From IMG/VR virus record IMGVR_UViG_3300019487_000090, positions 1 to 25,647 of that record: a stretch of 25,647 nt of DNA. One strand, written 5' to 3'. The notes below the pieces were generated by a model. That model was not told the origin of the DNA. It saw only the letters and a program-made list of their open reading frames with translations, and made no database searches. The position numbers and the translations under genes are program-made. The first letter of the stretch is position 1; each line of letters begins with the position of its first letter. Below, one piece after another: positions 3,657 through 23,221 of the stretch. Source of the DNA: a virus.

Positions 3657-3995
3657 TTGCGTTACTGCGGCGAACTGACCGTCCGCGTTCACTTCAACGG
3701 ATCTGACTATCAAGGAACGATCAGTCATGCGGGTCGGCACCTTTGGACGTTCGCCGATCTGTGCGCGCCGAGAGTCGGGTGGGGACATGGTATCGGGTAC
3801 GACAGCTCCGAAGCGTATGACCGCGCGGCCGAAGGTGCTGTCGGCTTCGGGTCCTACTACACTACGCACAACCAAGGGCATGACGTTCCTCCTTGGGCAC
3901 CGACGCCTGAGAACGCCGATACCATTGGCGAACGCTCGGAACTGTCCTGCGACGGGTCCGGTGAGTATATCATCCGTCGCAGGAGGGAGGGTTGA
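3657..3995 (+). CDS. Conserved phage hypothetical protein (112 aa), non-ATG start
   Basis: The product (RYCGELTVRVHFNGSDYQGTI..., GYDSSEAYDRAAEGAVGF, TTHNQGHDVPPWAPT) reads as a coherent small beta-rich phage protein. No ATG is available. TTG at 3657 or CTG at 3651 are the candidate starts, 11 to 17 bases after GAGGAGG in the end of the previous gene, so translation probably depends on coupling to that gene's stop (3646-3648). The second half of the sequence around SYYTTHNQG seems familiar from phage genomes, but I cannot name a function. Confidence 0.7.
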   Translation: MRYCGELTVRVHFNGSDYQGTISHAGRHLWTFADLCAPRVGWGHGIGYDSSEAYDRAAEGAVGFGSYYTTHNQGHDVPPWAPTPENADTIGERSELSCDGSGEYIIRRRREG

Positions 3996-3998
3996 TAG

Positions 3999-4250
3999 AT
4001 GGCAGCGTGGTCACTCTATGGCGTTTTCGCCGGCAGCAAGTGGGGCATGACAACCAATAAGCGCGAAGCGTTGCGCGCGGCCAAGGAACACAAGGGGTAT
4101 GTTCGCCTGATGGCGTACCCGCGCGATACTCACTATTGGGACCCACGCACCTTTATCGTTTGCTCCGACCCGCTCGCGGATTTCCGCGCGGAGGAAGAGC
4201 GGGTCGCGCGACATCTGCTTGATGGCCTTTCATCGGCGCCGATCGCTTGA
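3999..4250 (+). CDS. Small hypothetical protein (83 aa)
   Basis: ATG at 3999 lies behind AGGAGGGAGGG, three bases after the previous stop. The product starts MAAWSLYGVFAGSKWGMTTN and continues with KREALRAAKEHKGYVRLMAY, compatible with a small beta-alpha-beta fold, then an acidic helical C-terminus. It is the last gene before the 115-base repeat-containing gap at 4251-4365. Family not recognised. Confidence 0.75.
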   Translation: MAAWSLYGVFAGSKWGMTTNKREALRAAKEHKGYVRLMAYPRDTHYWDPRTFIVCSDPLADFRAEEERVARHLLDGLSSAPIA

Positions 4251-4260
4251 CGTTCGCTTT

Positions 4261-4344
4261 ACCCTACGCAGAGAATGCGCGCTCGCTGCGAGCGTAGGGT
4301 TTGCCGCGGTACGCGCGGCCGGTGTTTGCCGCGGTACGCGCGGC
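4261..4344. repeat. Inverted repeat plus duplicated 21-bp element
   Basis: ACCCTACGC (4261-4269) and its exact complement GCGTAGGGT (4292-4300) form a 9-bp stem with a 22-base spacer. Directly after it a 21-bp element beginning GTTTGCCGCGGTACGC is present twice, at 4299-4319 and 4324-4344. Each copy contains the palindromic-looking CCGCGGTACGCGCGG core. This fills most of the gap before the gene at 4366. It could be a transcription stop followed by operator-like repeats for the next gene. No U-run follows the stem. Confidence 0.65.
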
Positions 4345-4365
4345 GAGGGATAAGGAGGAAGTACC

Positions 4366-4779
4366 ATGACTAAGACAGAGAAGTGTGCCCAGTACCAGGA
4401 TTCGCTTGAATTCCTGCGCGACCTTTGCCCTCCCGGCACAAAGGTGTATACGATTCTTCGGCGTGTCGCTGCAAGCGGTATGACACGATGGCTAGATGTG
4501 GTGGTGATGCGAGACGGAGAACCGTACCGAATCACCTGGCACGTTGCGCAACTCGGCATTGCAACATACTGCCGGCAGCGCGAGGCGCTTAAGGTCGGCG
4601 GTTGTGGTCAGGATGCAGGATTCGCCGTTGTCTATCACCTTGGTGCGATTCTATACCCGGATGGGTTTACCTGTATCGGCGCGACGTGTCGATCTAATGA
4701 CCACTTCAATGGCGATAGGGACCGTACGCCTCACCACCACGCTTCGGGCGGATACGCTCTCGATCATTCATGGCTGTAA
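4366..4779 (+). CDS. Conserved phage protein with GYALDHSWL-type C-terminus
   Basis: ATG at 4366 follows AAGGAGGAAGTACC. The 137-residue protein has the order LRDLCPPGTKVYTILRRVAASGM, LKVGGCGQDAGFAVVYHLG, CIGATCRSNDHFNGD and HHHASGGYALDHSWL. I recall this arrangement from an uncharacterised protein family present in many actinobacterial and proteobacterial phages. Conserved His, Asp and Cys residues in the C-terminal third could bind metal; that is inference. It starts a new block of the operon after the repeat-rich gap. Confidence 0.85.
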   Translation: MTKTEKCAQYQDSLEFLRDLCPPGTKVYTILRRVAASGMTRWLDVVVMRDGEPYRITWHVAQLGIATYCRQREALKVGGCGQDAGFAVVYHLGAILYPDGFTCIGATCRSNDHFNGDRDRTPHHHASGGYALDHSWL

Positions 4780-4791
4780 GGGTTTCGGTCA

Positions 4792-5031
4792 ATGACACTC
4801 TATTCCTATCATGGTCGCATGCTCGCGCCCATCGGCTCCTATCGTTACCTTGCGGCACACACGCGCGACGATGGACCGCCGATTTATGGTCACGCGCCGA
4901 TCTATGGTACGCGCGTACGTTTGTTGCCAGCCACGCGGCGGGTTGCGCACCAGGTTTTGACGCCTGCGTTCGGCGAACTGGTTTGGATCAATGTTCCGCA
5001 TACCAATGCCACACTTGACAGTGTTGAGTAG
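4792..5031 (+). CDS. Small hypothetical protein (79 aa)
   Basis: ATG at 4792 is 12 bases after the preceding stop with only a weak AAGGG upstream. This frame is preferred over two overlapping frames because its product (MTLYSYHGRMLAPIGSYRYL, later TPAFGELVWINVPH) has ordinary amino acid composition and because its TAG (5029-5031) is embedded in the next ribosome binding site, as usual here. No domain recognised. The start is uncertain. Confidence 0.55.
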   Translation: MTLYSYHGRMLAPIGSYRYLAAHTRDDGPPIYGHAPIYGTRVRLLPATRRVAHQVLTPAFGELVWINVPHTNATLDSVE

Positions 5032-5041
5032 GAGGATACCA

Positions 5042-5497
5042 ATGCCCGCTTATGTCCCGTTTCGCGATGTGCCCAAAGGAGCGATTTTCCGATTTGTCGG
5101 GGACGATGAAGGGGTTCGATGGGAGAAGTATGACTCAGACGGTTACTTTCCCAAAGGGGGAGGAGGAAGTTGGGGTTACATCTGCTGTGACCCGGAACGA
5201 CTTTGCCGCCTGTTGGAGTCTCTCCAGCTTGCCGAGAGGTGTGAAGTGACTGATACACTAGGCCGGGTCGAAGCGTTAGCCGATGCCATCATGACCGAGG
5301 TGTGGCGGTTGCAGACAGTGGGAGCTTTACCCGCCGACGTGCGCTCTTTTGAGGATCTACATGACCATTGCGACGCGAACACGCTCGTTGACGTCGCGCC
5401 ATTCGTTGAGGGGTTGGATCAGGAATACGGCAGGCTCATTGTCAACGCGGCGCAGGGAATGGTCGACGCGCGGCTGAGACAGGGGGAGGCGCGATGA
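5042..5497 (+). CDS. Hypothetical protein (151 aa)
   Basis: ATG at 5042 follows TAGGAGGATACCA. Residues 1-60 form a beta-rich domain (VPFRDVPKGAIFRFVGDDEG, then a Gly-rich turn KGGGGSWGYICC), and the rest is helical (LGRVEALADAIMTEVWRLQ, LIVNAAQGMVDARLRQ). The N-terminal pattern, a short domain beginning with FRDVPKGAIF, resembles small phage proteins I have seen, but without known function. The stop overlaps the next ATG (GATGA). Confidence 0.75.
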   Translation: MPAYVPFRDVPKGAIFRFVGDDEGVRWEKYDSDGYFPKGGGGSWGYICCDPERLCRLLESLQLAERCEVTDTLGRVEALADAIMTEVWRLQTVGALPADVRSFEDLHDHCDANTLVDVAPFVEGLDQEYGRLIVNAAQGMVDARLRQGEAR

Positions 5498-6555: not shown

Positions 6556-7211
6556 TGAGAAAGCAAACAATGGGTGATCTAGAGTCGCGCTTTTGGTCCA
6601 AAGTAGATCGTCGCGGGCCTGATGATGGCTGGAGTTGGAAGCCGGTGAAAGCGCCGGAAAGGTATGGATCATTCTTGATGTTCGGCAGGCGTCATGGCGC
6701 TCATTGAGTTGCTTTCTACTTCGCCAACGGCAAGTGGCCACAACCTTTCTGTTTGCATTCATGCGACAATCCTATTTGCTGCAATCCAACCCACTTGCGC
6801 GAAGGCACGCCAGGAGAGAACTTGGAGGATATGGTTACTCGCGGACGGGCGGCTCATGGTGATCTCCATTGGTCCAAGGCGCTTCCTGAGCGCATAGCTC
6901 GCGGAAACCGTCATGGATCGCGCACACATCCCGAAAGAGTCGCTCGGGGCGAGCGGCATGGCTCACGAACGCATCCAGAGCGCGTTCTGCGTGGTAATCT
7001 GCATCCGTGTCGTCGGCATCCGGAAGCAGTGCGTCGAGGCGAGACACATGGAATGTCCAAACTCAATTGGGCTCGCGTCGACTATATTCGTGCCCGGTAT
7101 GCGCCTGGCAACACCAAGATGAAATGGATTGCCCAGTTACCTGGCGTCGATGCCAGCTTGATATGTCTCGTTGTTCACAACCGGATATGGAAACAAGCGC
7201 CGGGTTCGTAA
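6555..7211 (+). pseudogene. HNH homing endonuclease interrupted by an in-frame TGA
   Basis: From ATG 6555 the frame reads SRFWSKVDRRGPDDGWSWK and GSFLMFGRRHGAH, then TGA at 6705-6707, then continues in the same frame as VAFYFANGKWPQPFCLHSCD, NPICCNPTHLREGTPGENLE and DMVTRGRA. That is a typical HNH endonuclease with core C..CDNPICCNPTHL. In the family the residue after GAH is normally Arg, so CGA to TGA by one transition explains the stop. After the core come diverged copies of a basic unit with HGSRTHPERV, usual in these enzymes, and a helix-turn-helix-like end. Unless TGA is read through, the protein is inactive. An internal start downstream (6753) would keep the His-Cys core but lose the N-terminal part. 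Confidence 0.85.
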
Positions 7212-9606: not shown

Positions 9607-9843
9607 ATGAAAACACCAGAGGAGCGGTTTTGGAGCAAAGTCGATAAACGCGGCCCGAATGATTGTTGGCTCTGGATGGCAAGCCAAAATCCTAAAGGGT
9701 ACGGTCAATTCTCGATCTATGGGAAATGTCAACTGGCGCATAGGATTGCGTTCTTTCTGACATCTGGCCGTTGGCCTACGCCTAATTGTCTTCATGATTG
9801 CCCTCTTGGAGACAATCCAGCATGTTGTAATCCTGACGGATAG
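9607..9843 (+). pseudogene. HNH homing endonuclease, C-terminally truncated
   Basis: ATG at 9607 opens a frame reading ERFWSKVDKRGPNDCWLWMA, YGQFSIYGKCQLAHRIAFFL and NCLHDCPLGDNPACCNPDG, then TAG (9841-9843). This matches the HNH gene at 6555 up to CCNP, where intact relatives continue with a His-Leu and a DNA-binding tail. The final His of the metal site and the tail are missing. Just downstream, CATGAGGAAGAACATG resembles the expected His-Glu-Glu-x-Asn-Met continuation shifted by one frame, so a small deletion plus frameshift is likely. Probably inactive. The 45 bases before it show no feature. Confidence 0.8.
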
Positions 9844-10946: not shown

Positions 10947-10951
10947 GGTTG

Positions 10952-11602
10952 ATGAGGGAAGTCGATACAATGTTGGCGAATACCTCCTACGTCGGCCCGG
11001 AGCGGCGCACGCGTTCAGGTGCCCTGCGGCGCATGTTTGTCTCCGAGATGACCCCGGAAGAGATGCGGATAGCGATGCTCACCGACGAGTTGACGGGGCT
11101 GCCGAACCGTCGCGCCTTTCAGGAACGGACATCGCAACCCGGCGAGATGTTTCTTCTCATGGACGCTTGCGGGCTCAAATACATCAATGACACGTATGGC
11201 CTGGCAGCCGGAGACGCTCTCCTGGAGCTGGTGAGTGGCTTTTTGCGCCGACTGGCGAGCATGTATGAGGGCGTTCAGGTGTTTCGGCTCGGGGGGCGCT
11301 CCGACGAGTTCCTTCTGGTAGGCCCGGCCGCAGAAGAAGCCGAACGAATGCTTGCTTTTTACCAGCTCAATCAGGAGCTGGCACGCCTACCCCTCTACTG
11401 GCACTCCTGGCAGGATCTGGCGGGAGATACATGGCGTCTGCGCGGTGTTACGGTGACCTGGGCAGTAGGACAGTGTCTTGCCAGCGCCGATCTCGCCCTG
11501 CGCACAGCCAAGACACTTGGTGAGGAGCAGGGAACGCGGCCGCAACGCGGAGAGTGCCCGCTAGGGCTGCACGTATGGAGGGCGGCTGAGGTGCTAAGGT
11601 GA
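10952..11602 (+). CDS. GGDEF-like (diguanylate cyclase-like) protein, signature altered
   Basis: ATG at 10952, with AAGG just upstream. The 216-residue protein carries the GGDEF domain landmarks in order: TDELTGLPNRRAF (44-56), LLMDACGLKYIND (68-80), YGLAAGDALL (82-91) and RLGGRSDEF (112-120). GGDEF domains make cyclic di-GMP from two GTP. Here the signature has two extra residues (GG-RS-DEF), and the second Asp of the usual D-x-D-x-F-K segment is Cys74. The first Asp (71), Asn79 and Asp80 remain. I infer a domain that binds GTP or c-di-GMP, or is inactive, rather than a normal cyclase. There is no sensor domain beyond 30-40 basic N-terminal residues. The stop overlaps the next GTG. Confidence 0.75.
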   Translation: MREVDTMLANTSYVGPERRTRSGALRRMFVSEMTPEEMRIAMLTDELTGLPNRRAFQERTSQPGEMFLLMDACGLKYINDTYGLAAGDALLELVSGFLRRLASMYEGVQVFRLGGRSDEFLLVGPAAEEAERMLAFYQLNQELARLPLYWHSWQDLAGDTWRLRGVTVTWAVGQCLASADLALRTAKTLGEEQGTRPQRGECPLGLHVWRAAEVLR

Positions 11603-11938: not shown

Positions 11939-12691
11939 CTACTCAACCCCACACGTTTCCTTCACGCGGCGCAACACCTCTCGAAACAGCGCGTGGCATA
12001 CGACCGAATGGACGTCCTCGGCCGCTTGGACGTCCTCCGTCCCCACCACGAGCGCAAGGTCGGCCCACCTTTCCAAGGATGACCCCACCTGGCCGATCAA
12101 TGCCATGACCCTCAGCCCGCGCTTCTTGGCCGCGCTCGCGGCGTGGATCAGGTTGGACGACTCCCCCGACGCCGAGAGGAGGAGGAGCAGGCTGCCCGGC
12201 CTCCCCCAGGTCTCTATTTGCCGTGCTAGAGCGCCGGTCCAGCCTATGTCGTTGGACCAGGCCGACCAGATCCCCGGGTTCTCCCCCAGGACATGCACGC
12301 GTGGCGTGCTGTAGGCTTTCTCGATCGGCAGCGCGTCGCAGATGCACTTCTCCAGGTCCGTAGCAAAGTGGAGCGCCGTGCAGTGCGACCCGCCATTGCC
12401 GGCGACCAGCAACAGGTGACCTGCCGCCGCGCTCTCGGCGATCAAGGAAGCGATCTCGTTTATCCACATCTCGTCAACGTCGAAGACGGCACGTGACACA
12501 GTATCCAGATACTCGCGAACATGGCTGTCATAATCTTCGGTCACAATTTTCTCCTTCGGTCGATAGCTGGCCGTCTCGCGCCAGAGAGCCTCGTAGTCTG
12601 GCCATAAACGTGTTGGGATGCCAGCCTGCGCTTGATGCATCTGATCCAGGAAGATTGCGCACCGCTCCAACAGGTTGATTGTTTCAATCAC
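11939..12691 (-). CDS. gmhA: SIS-domain protein, phosphoheptose isomerase (GmhA)-like
   Basis: The product shows the GmhA landmarks: GNGGSHCTALHFATDL (98-113), LLSASGESSNLIHAASAAKK (171-190) and AAEDVHSVVCHAL (223-235). GmhA converts sedoheptulose 7-phosphate to heptose 7-phosphate for LPS heptose. From memory of the E. coli enzyme, the zinc ligands are H61, E65, Q172 and H180; here I read His108, Asp112, Glu225 and His233, so two are replaced by other acidic residues. Two starts are possible. GTG at 12691 overlaps the amidase stop (GTGA) and gives 250 residues with a 49-residue extension. GTG at 12544 has AAGGAG six bases upstream and gives 201 residues, nearer the usual length. Last gene before the terminator. 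Confidence 0.8.
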   Translation of the reverse strand: MIETINLLERCAIFLDQMHQAQAGIPTRLWPDYEALWRETASYRPKEKIVTEDYDSHVREYLDTVSRAVFDVDEMWINEIASLIAESAAAGHLLLVAGNGGSHCTALHFATDLEKCICDALPIEKAYSTPRVHVLGENPGIWSAWSNDIGWTGALARQIETWGRPGSLLLLLSASGESSNLIHAASAAKKRGLRVMALIGQVGSSLERWADLALVVGTEDVQAAEDVHSVVCHALFREVLRRVKETCGVE

Positions 12692-13272
12692 TTGTCGTTC
12701 TCGCTCATCAGATCCCACTTGCGGTGGTGGACCATGCTCCGCAATCCAGGCAACATCTGGTAGAGCCAATCGCCGGGACACTCGGTCGCTTTAACGTCCC
12801 GGTGCCCGCTGATGGTCTCGCTCGTTTGCAGTTCGCCCCAGCAGCACAGGTGCGCACACAACTCCACGAGCGCGAGCATCTGCCGCTCGGGCATGGGGCC
12901 CTTGGTGTAGCGCCCCTCGCACTCGATCCCCCAACAAGTGCGGTTAACATGGGTGACCCCGGCATGGGCGCCCTGGATCACTTGGCTGTGAAGTTGCGCT
13001 GCGTTCAGCGTCCCCTGACGGCCCTCCAGGATCAGGCCGGAGCGCGTCACCAGAAAGTGATGGCCACTGTCGCTCCAGCCGCGGTCTATGTGATCCTTCT
13101 GGATCGCTCGTGCGACGCGGAAGCATCGCTGTCGCTCCAGGAACGCCAGTGGAAGAGGCCAGGCATTCGCTCCTGCGGTGTGATGGATGATTACCCCCTC
13201 CGCAGGCGACCAGCTCAGACGTGAATTGTCGACGGGCTTTGCGCCCCACTGTTTGGTGGTGATGATTTTCAA
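12688..13272 (-). CDS. Endolysin: N-acetylmuramoyl-L-alanine amidase (Amidase_2/PGRP fold)
   Basis: The 194-residue protein has the zinc amidase pattern: VIIHHTAGAN (28-36, His ligand), AIQKDHIDRGWSDSGHHFLV (56-75), GRQGTLNAAQLHS (84-96), CWGIECEG (113-120), ISGHRDV (154-160, His157) and TECPGDWLY (163-171, Cys165). It cleaves the bond between N-acetylmuramic acid and L-Ala of peptidoglycan to release virions. No signal peptide or separate cell-wall-binding domain is present, and the size fits a single-domain lysin of a Gram-negative phage. ATG at 13272 is chosen; its upstream ribosome binding site is weak. The stop overlaps the next gene (GTGA). No obvious holin is seen nearby. Confidence 0.93.
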   Translation of the reverse strand: MKIITTKQWGAKPVDNSRLSWSPAEGVIIHHTAGANAWPLPLAFLERQRCFRVARAIQKDHIDRGWSDSGHHFLVTRSGLILEGRQGTLNAAQLHSQVIQGAHAGVTHVNRTCWGIECEGRYTKGPMPERQMLALVELCAHLCCWGELQTSETISGHRDVKATECPGDWLYQMLPGLRSMVHHRKWDLMSENDK

Positions 13273-13691: not shown

Positions 13692-13991
13692 TCACGCGTC
13701 CTGCGTTTCGCCTCCGCTGGCCCGCAGCATCTCCATTTCAATTTCCGTCAGGTAGGTGCCGTGCTTACTCCAGGTCCGATGTTTGATCACCGCCGGACAT
13801 AACGTAAATATGTGACGGTGATGGGCTGTCACCATGAGGGCGCGCAGGTGCGAAATCTCGGCGTGTAATGCTGGATCGTTTCCGATCTCCCGAACGATAT
13901 CCTCCAATCCTTTGCCGAGACGATAGGTGTCGTAGTGTCGGCGGCGGTGTATCGCACTTGCGGTCGTCCAGGATAGCTGCTTAACACTCAC
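13692..13991 (-). CDS. Hypothetical protein (99 aa)
   Basis: The frame is open to 14078, but GTG at 13991 overlaps the stop of the upstream gene (GTGA) and follows GGAGGAACGCG, so it is the likely start. The product (VSVKQLSWTTASAIHRRRHY, then LEDIVREIGNDPALHAEISH, then TEIEMEMLRAS) is largely helical. No motif recognised. Part of the run of small genes between terL and the lysin. Confidence 0.65.
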   Translation of the reverse strand: MSVKQLSWTTASAIHRRRHYDTYRLGKGLEDIVREIGNDPALHAEISHLRALMVTAHHRHIFTLCPAVIKHRTWSKHGTYLTEIEMEMLRASGGETQDA

Positions 13992-14278
13992 CGCGTTCCT
14001 CCGCACGCCAGGATGTCGTTGGCCATGTCTTCGTAAGCCTGCGCGTGCATAGCGAAGAGCATGACACCCTCCAGACACTTGTGAGCTACCTGCTCATGAG
14101 ACTTGATGATTTCGCGTTGCAAGCGCGGAAAGATCAAAAAGCCCAGCCAATTGCGGCGACTGCGTTCGGCCTTTATTGCCCATTGTCGATAGCGCAGGCC
14201 GTTCAGGAACGCCTCGACATGACACAGCTTGGCCTGATGATCGAGCCAGCCGACGCTAACCGGTTGATTCTCACTCAC
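13988..14278 (-). CDS. Hypothetical helical protein (96 aa)
   Basis: GTG at 14278 overlaps the stop of terL-C (GTGA) and follows GGAGGGTATCATCG. The product is helical (DHQAKLCHVEAFLNGLRYRQ, then HEQVAHKCLEGVMLFAMHAQ, then YEDMANDILACGGTR) with a short hydrophobic stretch (RNWLGFLIF) too short and too flanked by charge for a clear membrane anchor. Family not recognised. Confidence 0.65.
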   Translation of the reverse strand: MSENQPVSVGWLDHQAKLCHVEAFLNGLRYRQWAIKAERSRRNWLGFLIFPRLQREIIKSHEQVAHKCLEGVMLFAMHAQAYEDMANDILACGGTR

Positions 14279-15033
14279 CGATGATACCCTCCATAACTGC
14301 CGTGCGTCGAGTCGACCGCGCGCTCTTCCTCGGCGCGGCCGAACAGCTTTTCACTCTCCCACCACTGGTAGCGGCCCTGTCGCTCTTCCTCCGTCATCTC
14401 TTCCTCGGCCTTGACCTCGCTCGCGCGCAGGGTTCCGTCGGTATGAACGGCGTACGCCTGCTCGAAATTTCCGGTCTGTGCATGGCCGATCCAATACCCG
14501 ATTACAACGGCGTCTCCGGCATCAGTTGATCCGCCCCCCTCGCCGCCCTTATGCTTGCGAAGCCTGGCGCGAATGTCATCCTTCGACTCCAACTTGATCT
14601 GACCACTGGCGGTGGTGGTCCAGCGCGGAGCGGTCAAATCGGCCAATAGATCATCGTCAGGCGGAAGCTGTAGCCCTCGTCCAAGCTGGGGATCAAGAGC
14701 TTCACGTAAAATCCACCAGGAGGCAGCTCTTACATTTAGGAAAGAAAGAGTGCCACTGGCATCGGTCACGTCAGTTCGATTGGAGGCGTTATAGGGAACA
14801 ACCGGCTGACCCAGTTCCCGCAGGCGATCGAAAACACCGCTTCCAACGCCGATAATATCAATGCCTACGGCCATTGGGCGCCAGCTTATCGCAAGGTCGA
14901 AGATGCGTTGCGCCGTCTCCATCGTGTCGGCTTTCTTCCAGCGATGTAGCACATCTACCCGTAATCCTTTCCAAATGGCAACGACTGTGGAATCGGCGCC
15001 CTCTCGGGCAATATCACAACCAAACGCAATCAT
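14275..15033 (-). CDS. terL: Terminase large subunit, C-terminal nuclease half (split terL)
   Basis: This 252-residue protein is the RNase H-like nuclease of a large terminase, which cuts the concatemer during packaging. Visible are GCDIAREGADSTVVAIWKG (5-23, first catalytic Asp7), VGIDIIGVGSGVFDRL (57-71, Asp59), SKDDIRARL (150-158) and STDAGDAVVIGYW (169-181, Asp171/Asp174). There is no ATPase motif; those are in the separate gene at 15523. ATG at 15033 overlaps the stop of the intervening HNH gene (ATGA), so translation is coupled. In ordinary TerL proteins this domain follows the ATPase in one chain. The long acidic C-terminus (AEEEMTEEERQG) could contact the portal. Confidence 0.9.
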   Translation of the reverse strand: MIAFGCDIAREGADSTVVAIWKGLRVDVLHRWKKADTMETAQRIFDLAISWRPMAVGIDIIGVGSGVFDRLRELGQPVVPYNASNRTDVTDASGTLSFLNVRAASWWILREALDPQLGRGLQLPPDDDLLADLTAPRWTTTASGQIKLESKDDIRARLRKHKGGEGGGSTDAGDAVVIGYWIGHAQTGNFEQAYAVHTDGTLRASEVKAEEEMTEEERQGRYQWWESEKLFGRAEEERAVDSTHGSYGGYHR

Positions 15034-15533
15034 GGATTTTCAGCCTTAAGATGGCGCCATGTCTTCCCATTTCTAATCTGGTAAATGGTATTCTTGTGGA
15101 CGCCAAATAGATTGGCCATTTTAAAAGCAGATATGTTTCTTCGCTGACCAATATATTCGACGCGCCCATCATTCAAGAGTGCTCTCCCATGCCGCTCTCC
15201 AATGTCTCGAACGCGACCGGGATCGGTTTGTAAAATACTGCGCCCTTGCCGGATCATGTCACGCATGTTATCCAATGTCGTGCCGAGCAATAGATGTGCG
15301 GGATTGCAGCAAGGTGGATTATCACATTTATGGAGAACCGACAACCCAGGGGGAATGGGACCGTTGGCGATCGCCCAAACAATGCGATGAACGCTACGGC
15401 GGCGGTAGTGATCTCGAATACGCCCGTAGCCGAATTTTTGCTTTTGGCCTAACCGTGGCCAGCATTCGTCCGTCTTGCCGATTCTTACTCTATCCCAAAC
15501 ACGTTCGATTAGGGGTTTGTGTCTATTGGGCAT
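15030..15533 (-). CDS. HNH homing endonuclease inserted between the two terL halves
   Basis: The 167-residue protein reads ERVWDRVRIGKTDECWPRLG, FGYGRIRDHYRRRSVHRIVW, AIANGPIPPGLSVLHKCDNP, then PCCNPAHLLLGTTLDNMRDM: a complete HNH zinc-finger core. The C-terminal 30 residues (SAFKMANLFGVHKNTIYQIR) form a resolvase-like helix-turn-helix for DNA binding. Such enzymes cut specific sites in gene copies lacking the insert and spread by repair. ATG at 15533 lies 11 bases inside the end of terL-N, and the stop overlaps the terL-C start, so the gene fills the whole gap with no space for a group I intron. It appears intact, unlike those at 6555 and 9607. Confidence 0.92.
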   Translation of the reverse strand: MPNRHKPLIERVWDRVRIGKTDECWPRLGQKQKFGYGRIRDHYRRRSVHRIVWAIANGPIPPGLSVLHKCDNPPCCNPAHLLLGTTLDNMRDMIRQGRSILQTDPGRVRDIGERHGRALLNDGRVEYIGQRRNISAFKMANLFGVHKNTIYQIRNGKTWRHLKAENP

Positions 15534-16494
15534 CTACCTGCCTCCACCGGCTTTGCGCCACTTCTACCCAATCCGGCGGGATAACGCCGTCTTCCTGCTG
15601 AGCGCAAAACTCACCAAGAACATGTGCCTGAAACAGATAACTCATTTCTCCCCACTGGCGTCGGCGCGACTCGACCCACTCAGGTTCGATACGCCCCGCT
15701 GCAAGAGCCCGATCTAACGTAACATGGATGACGTGCCAATCCTCGTAACCTTCCTTGCGGTTCTGGATCTCGTAAAAACGTCCTTCCGGCCGCCCAGGTG
15801 TTGAGATGACAAGGGCATACGCCTCCTTGCTAGTACTGAAACAGCCCTCCAACGCGTCAAAGAACGCTTTGTCAATGCTCTTTGCTTCATCAAAGATCAT
15901 TGCTATGGAAGAGGCATGGCCTCCCTCCATGCTTGCGGGGTCCGTTGCCGTAGCTGCGTACGCGTGACCCGTGGTTAGTGTCAACCGTTCCAGCAACATC
16001 TCGGTTTTAGCATCGTAGGGAGTTCGGCCAACTCGGTCCCATCGTATACGGCGAGCCGTCTTGCGAATCTCGGGCCAGAGATAGTCCTTGAGTTGCCGTC
16101 CGACACTTGCGGTCGATCCAATCTTCCAGTCCGTCGCGGCATCTCGCGTCAGAGCCATCCAATGCAGCATCACTGAAGCGATAAAACTTTTGCCAAGACC
16201 TCGCGGGCCTCGCACGCATACGCGCTTCTTGGCGGGGAGTGCTGCTAATATCTCCGCCTGATACTCAGCCAATCCTTCATTCGGCCCCCATCGAAGGCAG
16301 TCGTGTGCGAAGGCAACTGGATCGTTCCAATATCGCTCTTGAAATGGCGTCCGCCGATTAGAAACGCTCATCTCTTCCTGGCGCAGCTCGTGATAAACAC
16401 CGACGACCTCCTCGGGAGTGGCCACCTCCAGGAGGCTGCGTGCCATCTCCTCGATCTGCGCGTCGGTCCAGTCGCCCGAAAGGAGATCAGACAT
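15523..16494 (-). CDS. terL: Terminase large subunit, N-terminal ATPase half (split terL)
   Basis: This is the packaging motor ATPase. Walker A is RGPRGLGKS (95-103), Walker B IAMIFDEAK (197-205, catalytic Glu203), with coupling motif STPG (231-234). An upstream adenine-binding region surrounds GLAEYQAEIL. The sequence ends EDGVIPPDWVEVAQSRWRQV plus three residues, the linker that normally leads into the nuclease domain, so the protein stops exactly at the domain border. ATG at 16494 overlaps the end of terS by eight bases; the frame is open to 16557, but that part overlaps terS. 323 residues here plus 252 in the downstream half match one normal TerL. Whether the halves assemble as two chains is inference. 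Confidence 0.93.
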   Translation of the reverse strand: MSDLLSGDWTDAQIEEMARSLLEVATPEEVVGVYHELRQEEMSVSNRRTPFQERYWNDPVAFAHDCLRWGPNEGLAEYQAEILAALPAKKRVCVRGPRGLGKSFIASVMLHWMALTRDAATDWKIGSTASVGRQLKDYLWPEIRKTARRIRWDRVGRTPYDAKTEMLLERLTLTTGHAYAATATDPASMEGGHASSIAMIFDEAKSIDKAFFDALEGCFSTSKEAYALVISTPGRPEGRFYEIQNRKEGYEDWHVIHVTLDRALAAGRIEPEWVESRRRQWGEMSYLFQAHVLGEFCAQQEDGVIPPDWVEVAQSRWRQVDAQ

Positions 16495-17221
16495 CGTCGG
16501 TCGTCTCCTCGTCGTCTCCCAGGCCGTGCACCTCTGCGGAATAGTTCCAGGGAACAAGCGCCGTCGCGGCGTCCGTTATTTCTTCCGTCTCTGCCTCCGT
16601 CACCTCGACGTCGATCGGCGGCTCCTCCTCGTTGCCAGCGGCGAGCGCCTGCCCCATTCGGGCGCTGACGGAGGCCAGAACCCGCTCCCGCACCTCGGCG
16701 GGCATGGCCCGGAGTACGTGCTGGACAGTAACCGTGATAGCGGAATCGTCGCGACGGTGTAGCCCCGAAATCTTTGCCAGTTCCCGCCCGGCGGCCTGCG
16801 CGTCGTAGAGTTCGATCTCAGCAGAGCCATCTTTCCCCACTTTGATTTTTTTGATCAGGTGAGTGAGACCGAGTTCCCTCGCTTTGCGCAAGCTTGGACG
16901 GGGCACTTCATCGGGGTCATCGGGGTCATTGGGGTCACTCCAGAAGTCGCCCATGTCACCGCGAGCATGGGAGGCAAAAAGCGCGAGGATCTCCATGGGC
17001 GCCATGTGGCGGCTCGTCCACTTCTCGATATGGTAACGAACTGAGGGGTCGTTGAGGAAACGTTTTGCTACGCGCCGGAGCGCTTGTTCATCATCACTAA
17101 TTCCAGCAAGGCGTGCAGCTTCAACCGCGTCACCGCGGCAGCGTCCGAGGTAGAATTCTAGCCAAAGCCGTTTCTGAGGAGTAAGAGTTGGCTCTGATGG
17201 TCCAGGCAATGCTTTTGGCAT
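16487..17221 (-). CDS. terS: Terminase small subunit
   Basis: The 244-residue protein begins with the DNA-binding pattern of small terminases: LTPQKRLWLEFYLGRCRGDA, VEAARLAGIS, ALRRVAKRFLNDPSVRYHIE. The following MAPMEILALFASHARGDMGD, LIKKIKVGKDGSAEIELYDA and AAGRELAKISGLH fit the same family. It recognises the packaging site and loads TerL. A run of Asp-Pro repeats (DPNDPDDPDEV) is encoded by a short 9-bp tandem repeat near 16905-16940. The acidic C-terminal tail probably contacts TerL. ATG at 17221 has no clear ribosome binding site. A sigma-54-like promoter lies 210 bases upstream. Directly adjacent to terL-N. Confidence 0.88.
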   Translation of the reverse strand: MPKALPGPSEPTLTPQKRLWLEFYLGRCRGDAVEAARLAGISDDEQALRRVAKRFLNDPSVRYHIEKWTSRHMAPMEILALFASHARGDMGDFWSDPNDPDDPDEVPRPSLRKARELGLTHLIKKIKVGKDGSAEIELYDAQAAGRELAKISGLHRRDDSAITVTVQHVLRAMPAEVRERVLASVSARMGQALAAGNEEEPPIDVEVTEAETEEITDAATALVPWNYSAEVHGLGDDEETTDDV

Positions 17222-18393: not shown

Positions 18394-18424
18394 GCCCCCG
18401 CCGACTGATGGCGGGGGCTCTTTC
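18394..18424 (+). terminator. Terminator-like hairpin just before the helicase
   Basis: GCCCCCGCC (18394-18402) and GGCGGGGGC (18410-18418) form a perfect 9-bp stem with a seven-base loop, followed by TCTTTCC. It lies about 45 bases after the predicted start from the 18321 promoter and ends at the helicase start codon, mirroring the layout on the minus side. The 3' arm GGCGGGGGC may also hide the ribosome binding site. An intrinsic terminator is likely, but the U-run is short. Confidence 0.65.
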
Positions 18425-18425
18425 C

Positions 18426-21242
18426 ATGATGAACGATTTTCTTGAACAAGAAATCATAGGGATTGGCGAACATATCGCTCCACCCTCCGTCAGGGTGCTG
18501 ACCACGAGCGACGGAAGAAAGCATCTAGTCTATAGGGGTCCTCGCGCGATCATTAGCTACTTCATCCATCTCCCGCAGGCGCGTGTCTTTGATGGTGGCC
18601 GCACTCTCTGCCTACCCGTGACGCGTGAGACGGTGATGTGTCTGGAGGTCATGGGGCGGTTGGAGGAGGCGGATGACAGCTACATCGCAGTTGTCCGGGA
18701 GTTGCTGCAGCCGAGTGCGGAGGCGCTCACTTACTATCCGGCCCCCGTGCCCAATGCACCGCCGCCGCGCCCCCACCAGCTCGCCGCCTTCGGTTGGGCA
18801 CTGGATGGGATCTTCGGCGGACGCAAAGGGTTTGTGAACGCCTGCACCTTAGGCTGTGTCGCAGGGGAGACAATCCTTAACATTAATCGCTCGGGAGCAG
18901 GGCGGGAGTACTCAATTCGCGACGTCTATCGTCGCTTTCATGGTTGTGCTCCTCAAGGGGACCGCCGAAAAAACCAAAAGTGGAAGCGTTCCATTCAGAC
19001 GTTTGCGCGGTCGCTTTGTGATGGAGAGTTTCGTCAACATCGCGTCGTCGACGTCCTCTCTCAAGGCGTAATGCCCGTTGTCAAACTTCTATTGAAGTCA
19101 GGGAAATCAATCCGCTTAACAGGCGATCATCCCGTTGCACGCCCTGATGGTTCGTGGACTCGTGTTGATGAGCTTCGGCCTGGTGATGAGGTTCTCGTAA
19201 ACGGAACTGCACTTTGTAAGAAGTGCGGCTCAAGTGATCGGGTAAGCAGCTCTAGGAACTCAAAGCATCCAGGCTATTGTTTTTTATGCATTACTCGCTT
19301 TCTACGCGGAGGTCAACGGACGCCTTCAACACTTTTTGAGCCGGACATTCAATGTATAGCCTGCGGTAGCGCTAAAGATGTACTGCGAACTAGCTATCTC
19401 AAGAACAAAGGGTATTGTCGTTCTTGTGCTCTCCGTCGCGCAGTAGACGCTCGAAGAGCAAGCGGGTGGAAAAGTCCAAGTGGACCGCAGCATCCAAATT
19501 GGAAAGGGGGGCGCTATCGCGATAACGACGGATACATCTTGATTAAAATGCCCGAGCACCCAAGGGCTCAATCAAGTGGCTATGTTTATGAACATATCGT
19601 TATCCTAGAGCAAAAACTTGACATATCAATAACCAAAGATAAACACGTTCATCACAAGAATGAAAACAAAGCAGATAATCGTCCCGAAAATTTGGAACTC
19701 CTTGATCCAAGCGAGCATCTTGTTGCTCATTCAGGGCATCGAAGACTAAATGGTGGCCGAAGCGGTAAGGGTGGCGAAGTCATCTTTATTCCCAAAGTCG
19801 ATGTTGTTGTCTCAATCGTCTCGGACGGAGAGACCGACGTTTACGACTTGGTAATGGAAGCGCCACACCACAACTTCGTGGCCAACGGAATCGTGGTCCA
19901 CAACAGTGGAAAGACCAAAATGGCCATCGATCTCATGCGCCACTTCGTACAAACCCGCGCTCTGGTCATCGGCCAGAAGATCACGTTGGAGCAGTGGCAA
20001 GAACAACTCGCCCTCTATTGGCCCGAGGCGGAAAGTTACATTCTGCACCAGCAGGGGAGTCTGGAGAACCGAAAAGCCTATCTGGCCGATATCCGCAGGT
20101 GCGAATCCGTGCCTCCCTATCGTATTATCCTCGTCAATTGGGAAACTGTCGCCGCGCTGGAGAAGGACCTCAAGAAGTTTGGCAAATTCGATCTGATCGT
20201 GGCTGATGAATCCAGCCGTCTTCTCAGCCGCACCACCGCCATGGCCCGGGCTGCGAAGGCCCTGGCGTGGCGTCACGCCTGGTATACGATCGCGATGACA
20301 GGGACACCGATCCGTAAAAGTGTCGAGGACCTCTGCGCGCTCGGCCAGTTTGTGGATAGCTCTGTATTCGGCTCCCGCATTGCCGAATTTCGCCAGCAGT
20401 ATTGCGACGAGTTATGGACGAGCAACCATCCTCTGTCGGTGCCCAAACCCGAGCGCGTGGCGGAGCTGGTTACGAAGTTCTACTCCTTCGGCTATCGCGT
20501 GAGCCGAGCGGCCGTCGATATGCCGGAGCCCGAGCGACGCGTCGTTCACCTGAAGCCTTCCCAGGAACAGGTCGAGCAACTGGAGCGTATCGACCGCGGT
20601 GAGACCTGCGAGGCCAGCAACGTCCTCGCGCGTATCATCCGCCAGCAGCAGGTGACGGCGGGCTTCGCGATGGCGCCCCATGACGCTCCCGCCGCCACCT
20701 GGGACGGAGAGCACGAGCAGATCCTTCGACCGCGCCCTCTGCACAATCCCAAACTGGATTGGATCATGGACTACCTGGAGGAGGCGTGGGACACCGAGGA
20801 CGGCAAGTTCCTGATCTGGACGCGTTTCATCCCTGAGATCGATCTCCTCCATCAGCGGCTCGTCGACCGCTGGGGGAGCAACGCCGTCGCACGGCTGGAC
20901 GGCAGCACTCCGGATGCGCGCCGCCAGGAGATTCGGCGGGCCGTCAACGACCGGTTGAACCCGCTTCGTGTATTGGCATGCAATTTGCAGACAGGTGCAA
21001 TGGGGCTGGATCTGCCGGGGATTGACATAATGGTGTACCATTCGTCCACGTTCGATTATGTCAACCGCGTGCAGTCGGAGGGGCGTGGAACACGCCTTGG
21101 GCGCACGAAGCCCTGCCAGATCATTGATCTCGTCCTGACCGGCACCATCGACGAGCATATCGCCGACGTGCTGGCGCAAAAGCAGTCCGTCCATGACCTG
21201 CTGGTAGGCCAGGGATTTCGACAGTTCCGTGAGGGTTCATGA
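18426..21242 (+). CDS. SNF2-type DNA helicase/translocase precursor with intein
   Basis: The precursor is about 938 residues; removing the intein (144-493) leaves about 588. The exteins join as TLG + SGKTKMA, restoring a Walker A loop. Downstream are motif II FDLIVADESSRLL, motif III AMTGTPIRKS and motifs V/VI TGAMGLDLPGIDIMVYHSST and NRVQSEGRGTRLGRTKPC, typical of superfamily 2 SNF2-like helicases of phages. Such proteins translocate on DNA during replication or recombination. ATG 18426 (or 18429) is preferred because an upstream in-frame ATG at 18408 lies in the loop of the hairpin; none has a good ribosome binding site. It leads an operon with two recombination genes, and its stop overlaps the next ATG. 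Confidence 0.9.
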   Translation: MMNDFLEQEIIGIGEHIAPPSVRVLTTSDGRKHLVYRGPRAIISYFIHLPQARVFDGGRTLCLPVTRETVMCLEVMGRLEEADDSYIAVVRELLQPSAEALTYYPAPVPNAPPPRPHQLAAFGWALDGIFGGRKGFVNACTLGCVAGETILNINRSGAGREYSIRDVYRRFHGCAPQGDRRKNQKWKRSIQTFARSLCDGEFRQHRVVDVLSQGVMPVVKLLLKSGKSIRLTGDHPVARPDGSWTRVDELRPGDEVLVNGTALCKKCGSSDRVSSSRNSKHPGYCFLCITRFLRGGQRTPSTLFEPDIQCIACGSAKDVLRTSYLKNKGYCRSCALRRAVDARRASGWKSPSGPQHPNWKGGRYRDNDGYILIKMPEHPRAQSSGYVYEHIVILEQKLDISITKDKHVHHKNENKADNRPENLELLDPSEHLVAHSGHRRLNGGRSGKGGEVIFIPKVDVVVSIVSDGETDVYDLVMEAPHHNFVANGIVVHNSGKTKMAIDLMRHFVQTRALVIGQKITLEQWQEQLALYWPEAESYILHQQGSLENRKAYLADIRRCESVPPYRIILVNWETVAALEKDLKKFGKFDLIVADESSRLLSRTTAMARAAKALAWRHAWYTIAMTGTPIRKSVEDLCALGQFVDSSVFGSRIAEFRQQYCDELWTSNHPLSVPKPERVAELVTKFYSFGYRVSRAAVDMPEPERRVVHLKPSQEQVEQLERIDRGETCEASNVLARIIRQQQVTAGFAMAPHDAPAATWDGEHEQILRPRPLHNPKLDWIMDYLEEAWDTEDGKFLIWTRFIPEIDLLHQRLVDRWGSNAVARLDGSTPDARRQEIRRAVNDRLNPLRVLACNLQTGAMGLDLPGIDIMVYHSSTFDYVNRVQSEGRGTRLGRTKPCQIIDLVLTGTIDEHIADVLAQKQSVHDLLVGQGFRQFREGS
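18855..19904 (+). other. Intein with HNH endonuclease inserted in the helicase Walker A loop
   Basis: A 350-residue intein starts at Cys (CVAGETILNINRSG, block A) and ends with VANGIVVHN (blocks F/G, His-Asn); the next extein residue is Ser. Block B is KSIRLTGDHPVARPDGSW, followed by VDELRPGDEVLV. The middle has two zinc-knuckle copies (CKKCGSS ... CFLC and CIACGSA ... CRSC) and an HNH domain (GYVYEHIVILEQKL, then HVHHKNENKADNRPENLELL). It removes itself by protein splicing and can home into intein-free alleles. Insertion at the ATP-binding loop is a common intein site. The element is lower in GC than its host gene, which fits recent arrival. Confidence 0.95.
20972..20990 (+). promoter_or_regulatory. 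Possible internal sigma-54-like site in the helicase gene
   Basis: TTGGCATGCAATTTGCAG (20973-20990) also matches the RpoN pattern with ten bases between GG and GC. It lies within codons for a conserved helicase segment (LACNLQTGAMG), 250 bases before the next gene, so the match may be chance from the coding constraint. Listed only because it is as good a match as the intergenic ones. Confidence 0.25.
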
Positions 21243-22711: not shown

Positions 22712-23121
22712 TCCGGGATCGTCTAACGGCAGGACACCGAACAGATGAGCGACTATTACAAGCAATGGCGCGCTAAAGTAATCCAAGATTTGGGCGGTGT
22801 TTGTGTCTGGTGTGGAGCGACGAATCATCTCCAAATCGACCATATCAATCCAGCTCAAAAACGCGTATCCGTGTCTAATATCTGGTCTTATTGTTCTGAG
22901 ATTGTCGAAGAAGAGTTGGCCAAGTGCCAGCTTTTGTGTGAGATTTGCCACAAGGGAAAGCATGCAGCGACCCATGGCACTTATTCTCGTTATCGACATC
23001 ACAAATGCAGATGCAATCCTTGTCGTGAGGCAGGGAACAGATATATGCGCGATTACAAGAAAAAGCGTCGCAGTCGTTCTTGGAGCCGTCAATCGAGGTT
23101 CGAGTCCTCGTCCCGGAGCCA
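22712..23121 (+). tRNA. tRNA gene split by an HNH ORF (5' half 22712-22741, 3' half about 23089-23121)
   Basis: The 5' half has acceptor TCCGGGA, a D-stem (GTCT/GGAC) and the start of the anticodon arm. The 3' half has a T-arm (CGAGG, loop TTCGAGT, CCTCG), acceptor TCCCGGA fully paired to the 5' strand, discriminator G and an encoded CCA. About 350 bases holding an HNH gene replace the anticodon region. I could not rebuild a paired anticodon stem from the flanks (5' CCGAA; 3' AGCCG or GCCGT), so the anticodon arm may be deleted, or splicing ends differ from my guess. The body resembles tRNA-Gln or tRNA-Glu, but identity is unproven. Either an intron-like insertion or a pseudo-tRNA. Confidence 0.75.
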
Positions 23122-23221
23122 GAGTAGTGACCTGCGTGGGATGGCTGCCCACGACGAAAGTGACATAACGCAGCCGCGTGCTCGCCCCGCTCCCCCGGTG
23201 GGGAGGATGAGAGCGAAATAG
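22745..23221 (+). CDS. HNH endonuclease within the split tRNA
   Basis: ATG at 22745 begins just after the 5' tRNA half (no clear ribosome binding site). The core VCVWCGATNHLQIDHINPAQ and CQLLCEICHKGKHA is a zinc-stabilised HNH domain. A Cys-rich basic segment (HKCRCNPCREAGNRYMRDYK) follows. The frame runs on through the 3' half of the tRNA (KKKRRSRSWSRQSRFESSS, where the T-arm DNA lies) to 23221, so the last 50 residues are not normal HNH sequence. The original stop may have been lost. In this family the domain cleaves DNA at the homing site; its position here suggests that the tRNA gene is the target. Confidence 0.85.
   Translation: MSDYYKQWRAKVIQDLGGVCVWCGATNHLQIDHINPAQKRVSVSNIWSYCSEIVEEELAKCQLLCEICHKGKHAATHGTYSRYRHHKCRCNPCREAGNRYMRDYKKKRRSRSWSRQSRFESSSRSQSSDLRGMAAHDESDITQPRARPAPPVGRMRAK

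Follow-up and report, generated by a model that had tools for sequence, protein, structure and literature searches.

In a viral contig, the gene for the large terminase subunit (terL) is cut at the border between its ATPase and nuclease domains by an intact gene for an HNH endonuclease. The explanation favoured here, with moderate confidence, is that a free-standing homing-type endonuclease gene fissioned terL within the interdomain linker. The result would be three overlapping cistrons, and the two terminase chains would probably assemble non-covalently. The window, meaning the whole stretch of DNA that was analysed, is an IMG/VR virus record of 25,647 bases, and the split is known from this single metagenomic contig.

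Anatomy of the split terL locus

The following features make up the locus, given in the direction of transcription.

16487..17221, minus strand: small terminase subunit (TerS) gene (Terminase_2), with an 8-nt overlap onto the beginning of the N-terminal half of TerL
15523..16494, minus strand: N-terminal half of TerL, 323 aa, with a complete ATPase domain and a phrog_2 match
15541..15545, minus strand: GGAGG, a Shine-Dalgarno-like site 7 nt before the HNH ATG and inside the R-W-R codons of terL
15030..15533, minus strand: intact HNH_3 endonuclease gene, 167 aa, between the two TerL halves
15047-15044, minus strand: AAGG, a weak Shine-Dalgarno-like site ahead of the nuclease-half ATG
15034..15048, minus strand: TAA GGC TGA AAA TCC, immediately upstream of the nuclease-half ATG and read in the terL frame
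14275..15033, minus strand: C-terminal half of TerL, 252 aa, an RNase H-type nuclease domain
13988..14278, minus strand: next gene of the operon, 96 aa, without a family match, its start codon overlapping the stop of the C-terminal half by 4 nt

The ATPase half, the HNH gene and the nuclease half are three intact open reading frames that overlap head to tail. The initial annotation had placed the two terminase halves and given their lengths correctly, as the reading frames confirm. It had also described the HNH gene as filling the space between the halves and overlapping both, and the overlaps are indeed there: 11 nt with the ATPase half and 4 nt (ATGA) with the nuclease half. The ATPase half ends within the linker, at RWRQVDAQ followed by TAG at 15525-15523. 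The nuclease half starts with an ATG immediately ahead of the first catalytic strand. Both halves lie in the same frame, and the HNH gene lies in a different one. The outer junctions, with TerS and with the downstream gene, have kept their overlaps too.

Identity and integrity of the two halves

Each half matches the TerL family phrog_2, the ATPase half at 2e-24 and the nuclease half at 3e-9. Used as a profile, the nuclease half also finds a solved TerL nuclease chain, 8dkr_B (6e-13). The ATPase half used in the same way has marginal PDB matches only, the best of them to T4 gp17 (0.02). Its closest named relatives are Actinoplanes phage phiAsp2 and Streptomyces phage TurkishDelight, both of which have an unsplit terminase. 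Judged by homology, the split protein is still a TerL of the phrog_2 kind, similar to those of phiAsp2 and TurkishDelight; what it lacks is their one-chain layout. A gene for the portal protein was not recognised on the contig.

All of the catalytic residues examined in the two halves are intact. The ATPase half has a Walker A motif (GPRGLGKS, 16209-16186), a Walker B motif with the catalytic carboxylate (IFDE, 15897-15886) and motif III. The nuclease half has the invariant acidic residues D7, D59, D171 and D174, and with them the three acidic sites of an RNase H-type nuclease. Near-invariant residues are kept at a fraction of 0.90 in the ATPase half, the 15th lowest value of 159, and 0.97 in the nuclease half. 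Several such positions have changed in the N-terminal half, for example W132G and W146T. The terminal branches of the two halves rank 132 and 148 of 160, and are thus long without being extreme. Neither half contains an internal stop or a frameshift. The halves therefore show no sign of pseudogene decay as far as their sequences go, which does not in itself prove selection after the split, since there is no close sibling for comparison.

Comparison with unsplit relatives

Related terminases were compared at 219 distinct TerL loci holding both parts. These come from IMG/VR and GTDB contigs, and a few are named phage records. Because the search patterns were placed within the domains, the sample is unbiased against inserts at the border. 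The terL gene is continuous across the border in 216 of the 219 loci, and in none of the 219 does an HNH gene occupy it. Together with the family matches, this continuity upholds the earlier description of a TerL cut at its domain border by an intact HNH gene.

Three loci are broken. One of them, L232, has a frameshift inside the ATPase domain. In the other two, L201 and L203, the break falls in the linker where the split gene is also broken, but no HNH gene is present, and both loci are found in bacterial metagenome bins (MAGs). Their inserts include stretches repeated elsewhere in the same locus. In addition, L203 has a frameshift and L201 is surrounded by bacterial-type genes. These two loci look like decayed relics. 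The initial annotation had named a border of this kind, broken in relatives without an HNH insertion, as evidence that would count against it; such a border is confined to these two relics, and the 216 continuous loci have none. No sibling of the split locus was found, either with or without the insert. MW202711, which has two features under the match, proved to be an ordinary TerL.

L201 itself is an orphan TerL in a Chloroflexi MAG, and its insert is a short one. Its two parts (3863-4762 and 4796-5359) are both open and share one frame.

In relatives of this type, the spacing between the conserved RW and the GxD strand is mostly 11-20 residues and most often 17. Between the same landmarks the split TerL has at most 12 linker codons left (RQVDAQ plus KSMIAF), which probably makes its linker shorter than that of most relatives. 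The expectation that no residues would be lost in comparison with unsplit relatives thus holds for the conserved residues, none of which is missing at the split. It may not hold in full for the linker, which may have lost up to about five residues when compared with the commonest length. In 11 of 210 relatives a methionine occupies the start position of the nuclease half, and for this reason the start codon may be native.

Linker length varies elsewhere in the family as well. In a subgroup of five TerL loci (L115, L125, L127, L160 and L174), 39-50 interdomain residues are found in place of about 17, and these linkers share an HWNW...-like stretch.

An alternative to fission into two working chains is that the insertion inactivated terL. 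The contig would then come from a phage that is defective or dying, or from the relic of a provirus, and the insertion would be too recent for the halves to have eroded yet. In favour of this, TerL is essential, and the T4 enzyme split at its linker does not translocate DNA; L201 and L203, broken at the same linker, are relic-like and sit in bacterial MAGs; and truncated HNH pieces occur in the same window. On the other side, neither half has a stop or a frameshift, every catalytic residue is kept, and the overlaps with the neighbouring genes (TerS upstream, the 96-aa gene downstream) are preserved. The contig is also viral by its IMG/VR class, and the branch lengths are not outliers. Inactivation is unlikely on this evidence, though it deserves to be taken seriously.

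Introns, inteins and read-through

The initial annotation held that, because the HNH gene overlaps both halves, no intron fits. Its conclusion agrees with the covariance searches, but its argument is insufficient. K1E has an HNH gene that likewise extends into the second part of terL, yet an intron is detected there. Overlap alone therefore cannot exclude an intron; it is the missing core that does. Rfam covariance models were run with relaxed filters and E up to 10, and gave no relevant match to a group I intron core in the split terL region. The same search recovered the control terL introns of CB7 (1e-6) and K1E (3e-15).

A group I intron, or one of unknown type, might still remove the HNH region, so that a single TerL is made, if its core were hidden within the HNH reading frame. 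Introns bearing HNH genes are common in terL (CB7, SIOphi, Silence), and the terL of ICP1 is spliced too. The two halves share one frame, and if they were joined exactly within RQVDAQ...KSMIAF, as many as 12 linker residues would remain, which is inside the natural range. But a full-length HNH reading frame fills essentially the whole 490-500 nt, so that no separate core is available, and a search able to find both control introns found none here. Splicing by an intron is improbable.

Neither intein splicing motifs at the two extein edges nor an intein family in the halves was found. The edge sequences and the family search thus agree with the initial annotation, which saw no intein halves at either edge.

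Two other routes to a single chain were considered and rejected. Read-through or a single frameshift is ruled out by the in-frame TAG, TAA and TGA and by the different frame of the HNH gene. A programmed fusion of HNH protein and TerL would be expected to use a slippery heptamer, and by eye the ATGA overlap appears to have none.

Origin of the HNH gene

The middle protein matches HNH_3 (7e-15) and the homing-type HNH PHROGs 1872, 59 and 6254. Its HNH motif lies at about 15392-15261 and is followed by an HTH-like C-terminal part at about 15146-15060. Set against free-standing homologues, for example the one in phage Nepra, the gene is full-length. With an HNH_3 motif, a C-terminal DNA-binding part and full length, it has the make-up of a free-standing HNH homing endonuclease. 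The locus as a whole is laid out like other genes split by a homing endonuclease gene (HEG), of which Aeh1 nrdA is the pattern: the HEG lies directly in the gene, there is no intron, and both parts are open.

The composition of the HNH gene is foreign to its surroundings. Its GC content is 0.49, compared with 0.57 and 0.58 in the TerL halves, and its GC3 is 0.48, compared with 0.59 and 0.60. Since the HNH gene differs while the two halves match each other, the composition fits one ancestral terL into which the HNH gene arrived later. There is no target-site duplication, the insert edges having only a 6-mer in common.

Alternately, the HNH protein may be a dedicated packaging partner of the split TerL, comparable to HK97 gp74, and not a selfish element. 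Packaging HNH proteins that adjoin the terminase are described as widespread (Kala et al. 2014, as cited in PMC7344957), and here the HNH gene overlaps, and is probably coupled to, each TerL half. The family matches point elsewhere, to HNH_3 and the homing-type PHROGs with an HTH-like C-terminus. All named HNH matches fall in the PHROG category DNA, RNA and nucleotide metabolism, and no head-and-packaging PHROG of the HK97 gp74 type is matched. None of the best 80 viral relatives of the HNH protein adjoins a related TerL, and other HNH elements lie on the same fragment. A packaging role is very improbable. Equally hard to credit is an assembly artefact that joined an HNH gene from elsewhere into terL in silico: the contig is a single metagenomic one and HNH genes are repeated in phages, but working start and stop overlaps (11 nt and ATGA) with a Shine-Dalgarno-like site would be rare in a chance chimera, and the repeat common to both edges is no longer than 6 nt.

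The 25.6-kb fragment carries at least five HNH elements or remnants. An unrelated HNH gene (phrog_4234, 6e-30) is found at 22745-23221 on the plus strand. Two pieces of HNH genes occur on the same strand. One, at 9607-9843, has only the N-terminal part before a stop. The other, at about 6635-7211, includes a frame (6753-7211) that opens midway through the HNH motif and has a repeated HGSRTHPERV-like stretch. Finally, a SNF2/DEAD-type helicase gene (18408-21242, plus strand) contains an intein with an HNH_3 domain (Pfam Intein_splicing 3e-12, HNH_3 2e-7).

A proposed two-chain terminase

In the proposed fission, the process would start with the insertion of an HNH gene into the interdomain linker of terL, with neither an intron nor an intein. 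One gene would thereby become three overlapping cistrons, for the ATPase chain, the endonuclease and the nuclease chain. Translation of the HNH gene probably starts from the GGAGG inside the terL codons, by a ribosome leaving the ATPase half. The nuclease chain probably begins by termination and reinitiation at the ATGA after the HNH gene, and would use a methionine that is natively present at the same position in some relatives. The ATPase and nuclease chains, each a whole domain, would probably pair on the portal without a peptide link and package DNA.

One consequence of this model would be a working packaging motor whose ATPase domain and nuclease/translocation domain are separate polypeptides, with force passed between them without a covalent hinge. 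This step is more tentative than the fission itself, the considerations on either side being nearly balanced. The initial annotation stated that the halves must work as two chains, which is stronger than the known cases allow. It fits Aeh1 NrdA which, like gp43 of phage 25, is functional after being split by a HEG (PMC2988022). It fits less well with T4 gp17, which when split at the linker keeps its ATPase and nuclease but loses DNA translocation (PMC3012670, PMC9958956). In light of the T4 result, it would be a surprise if a motor made of two chains worked. In gp17, the complementary surface between the N and C domains exceeds 1000 square angstroms, which makes non-covalent pairing plausible, although in T4 it is insufficient.

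Relation to known systems

Interruption of terL by HNH introns, which is common, or by inteins is well known. The open-access literature that was searched yielded no case of terL split at its domain border by an HNH gene without an intron, and such a split appears to be undescribed there.

The closest parallel is nrdA of phage Aeh1, split by the HNH gene mobE (PMC2988022). There, too, an essential enzyme is made as two separate chains without splicing. The enzyme is a different one, and in terL the break lies at a domain border and two-chain function is putative. The group I introns of terL (CB7, K1E/phD2B, SIOphi, Silence) likewise place a gene for an HNH or other homing endonuclease between terL parts. 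In CB7 and K1E, however, there is a detectable intron core and extra non-coding sequence, whereas the split terL has no core and its insert is filled by the reading frame. The TerL intein of phage Marshall (PMC3853055) is also a mobile element inside TerL; the split terL has no intein splicing part, and the HNH-bearing intein of the window is in the helicase gene. Cutting T4 gp17 at the linker (PMC3012670) similarly gives an ATPase chain and a nuclease chain with the same type of border. That cut is a laboratory construct in which translocation is lost, while the split terL is a natural arrangement.

If the proposal is correct, a phage with a two-chain TerL would show that the hinge between the domains need not be covalent. 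It would also provide a natural two-part motor whose domains could be separately mutated, labelled and exchanged. TerL would also be added to the few essential phage enzymes known to have been fissioned by HEGs without splicing.

Other genes in the window

A gene for a SIS-domain (sugar isomerase-like) protein lies at 11939-12781 on the minus strand, directly downstream of the gene for an amidase endolysin (12688-13272, minus strand). A SIS-domain gene beside an endolysin gene on the same strand is unusual company for a lysis gene. On the plus strand, a reading frame of 217 aa (10949-11602) matches several PHROGs of unknown function, the best being phrog_5594 (4e-19). It has a LTDELTGLPNRRAF stretch that by eye resembles a GGDEF-type domain.
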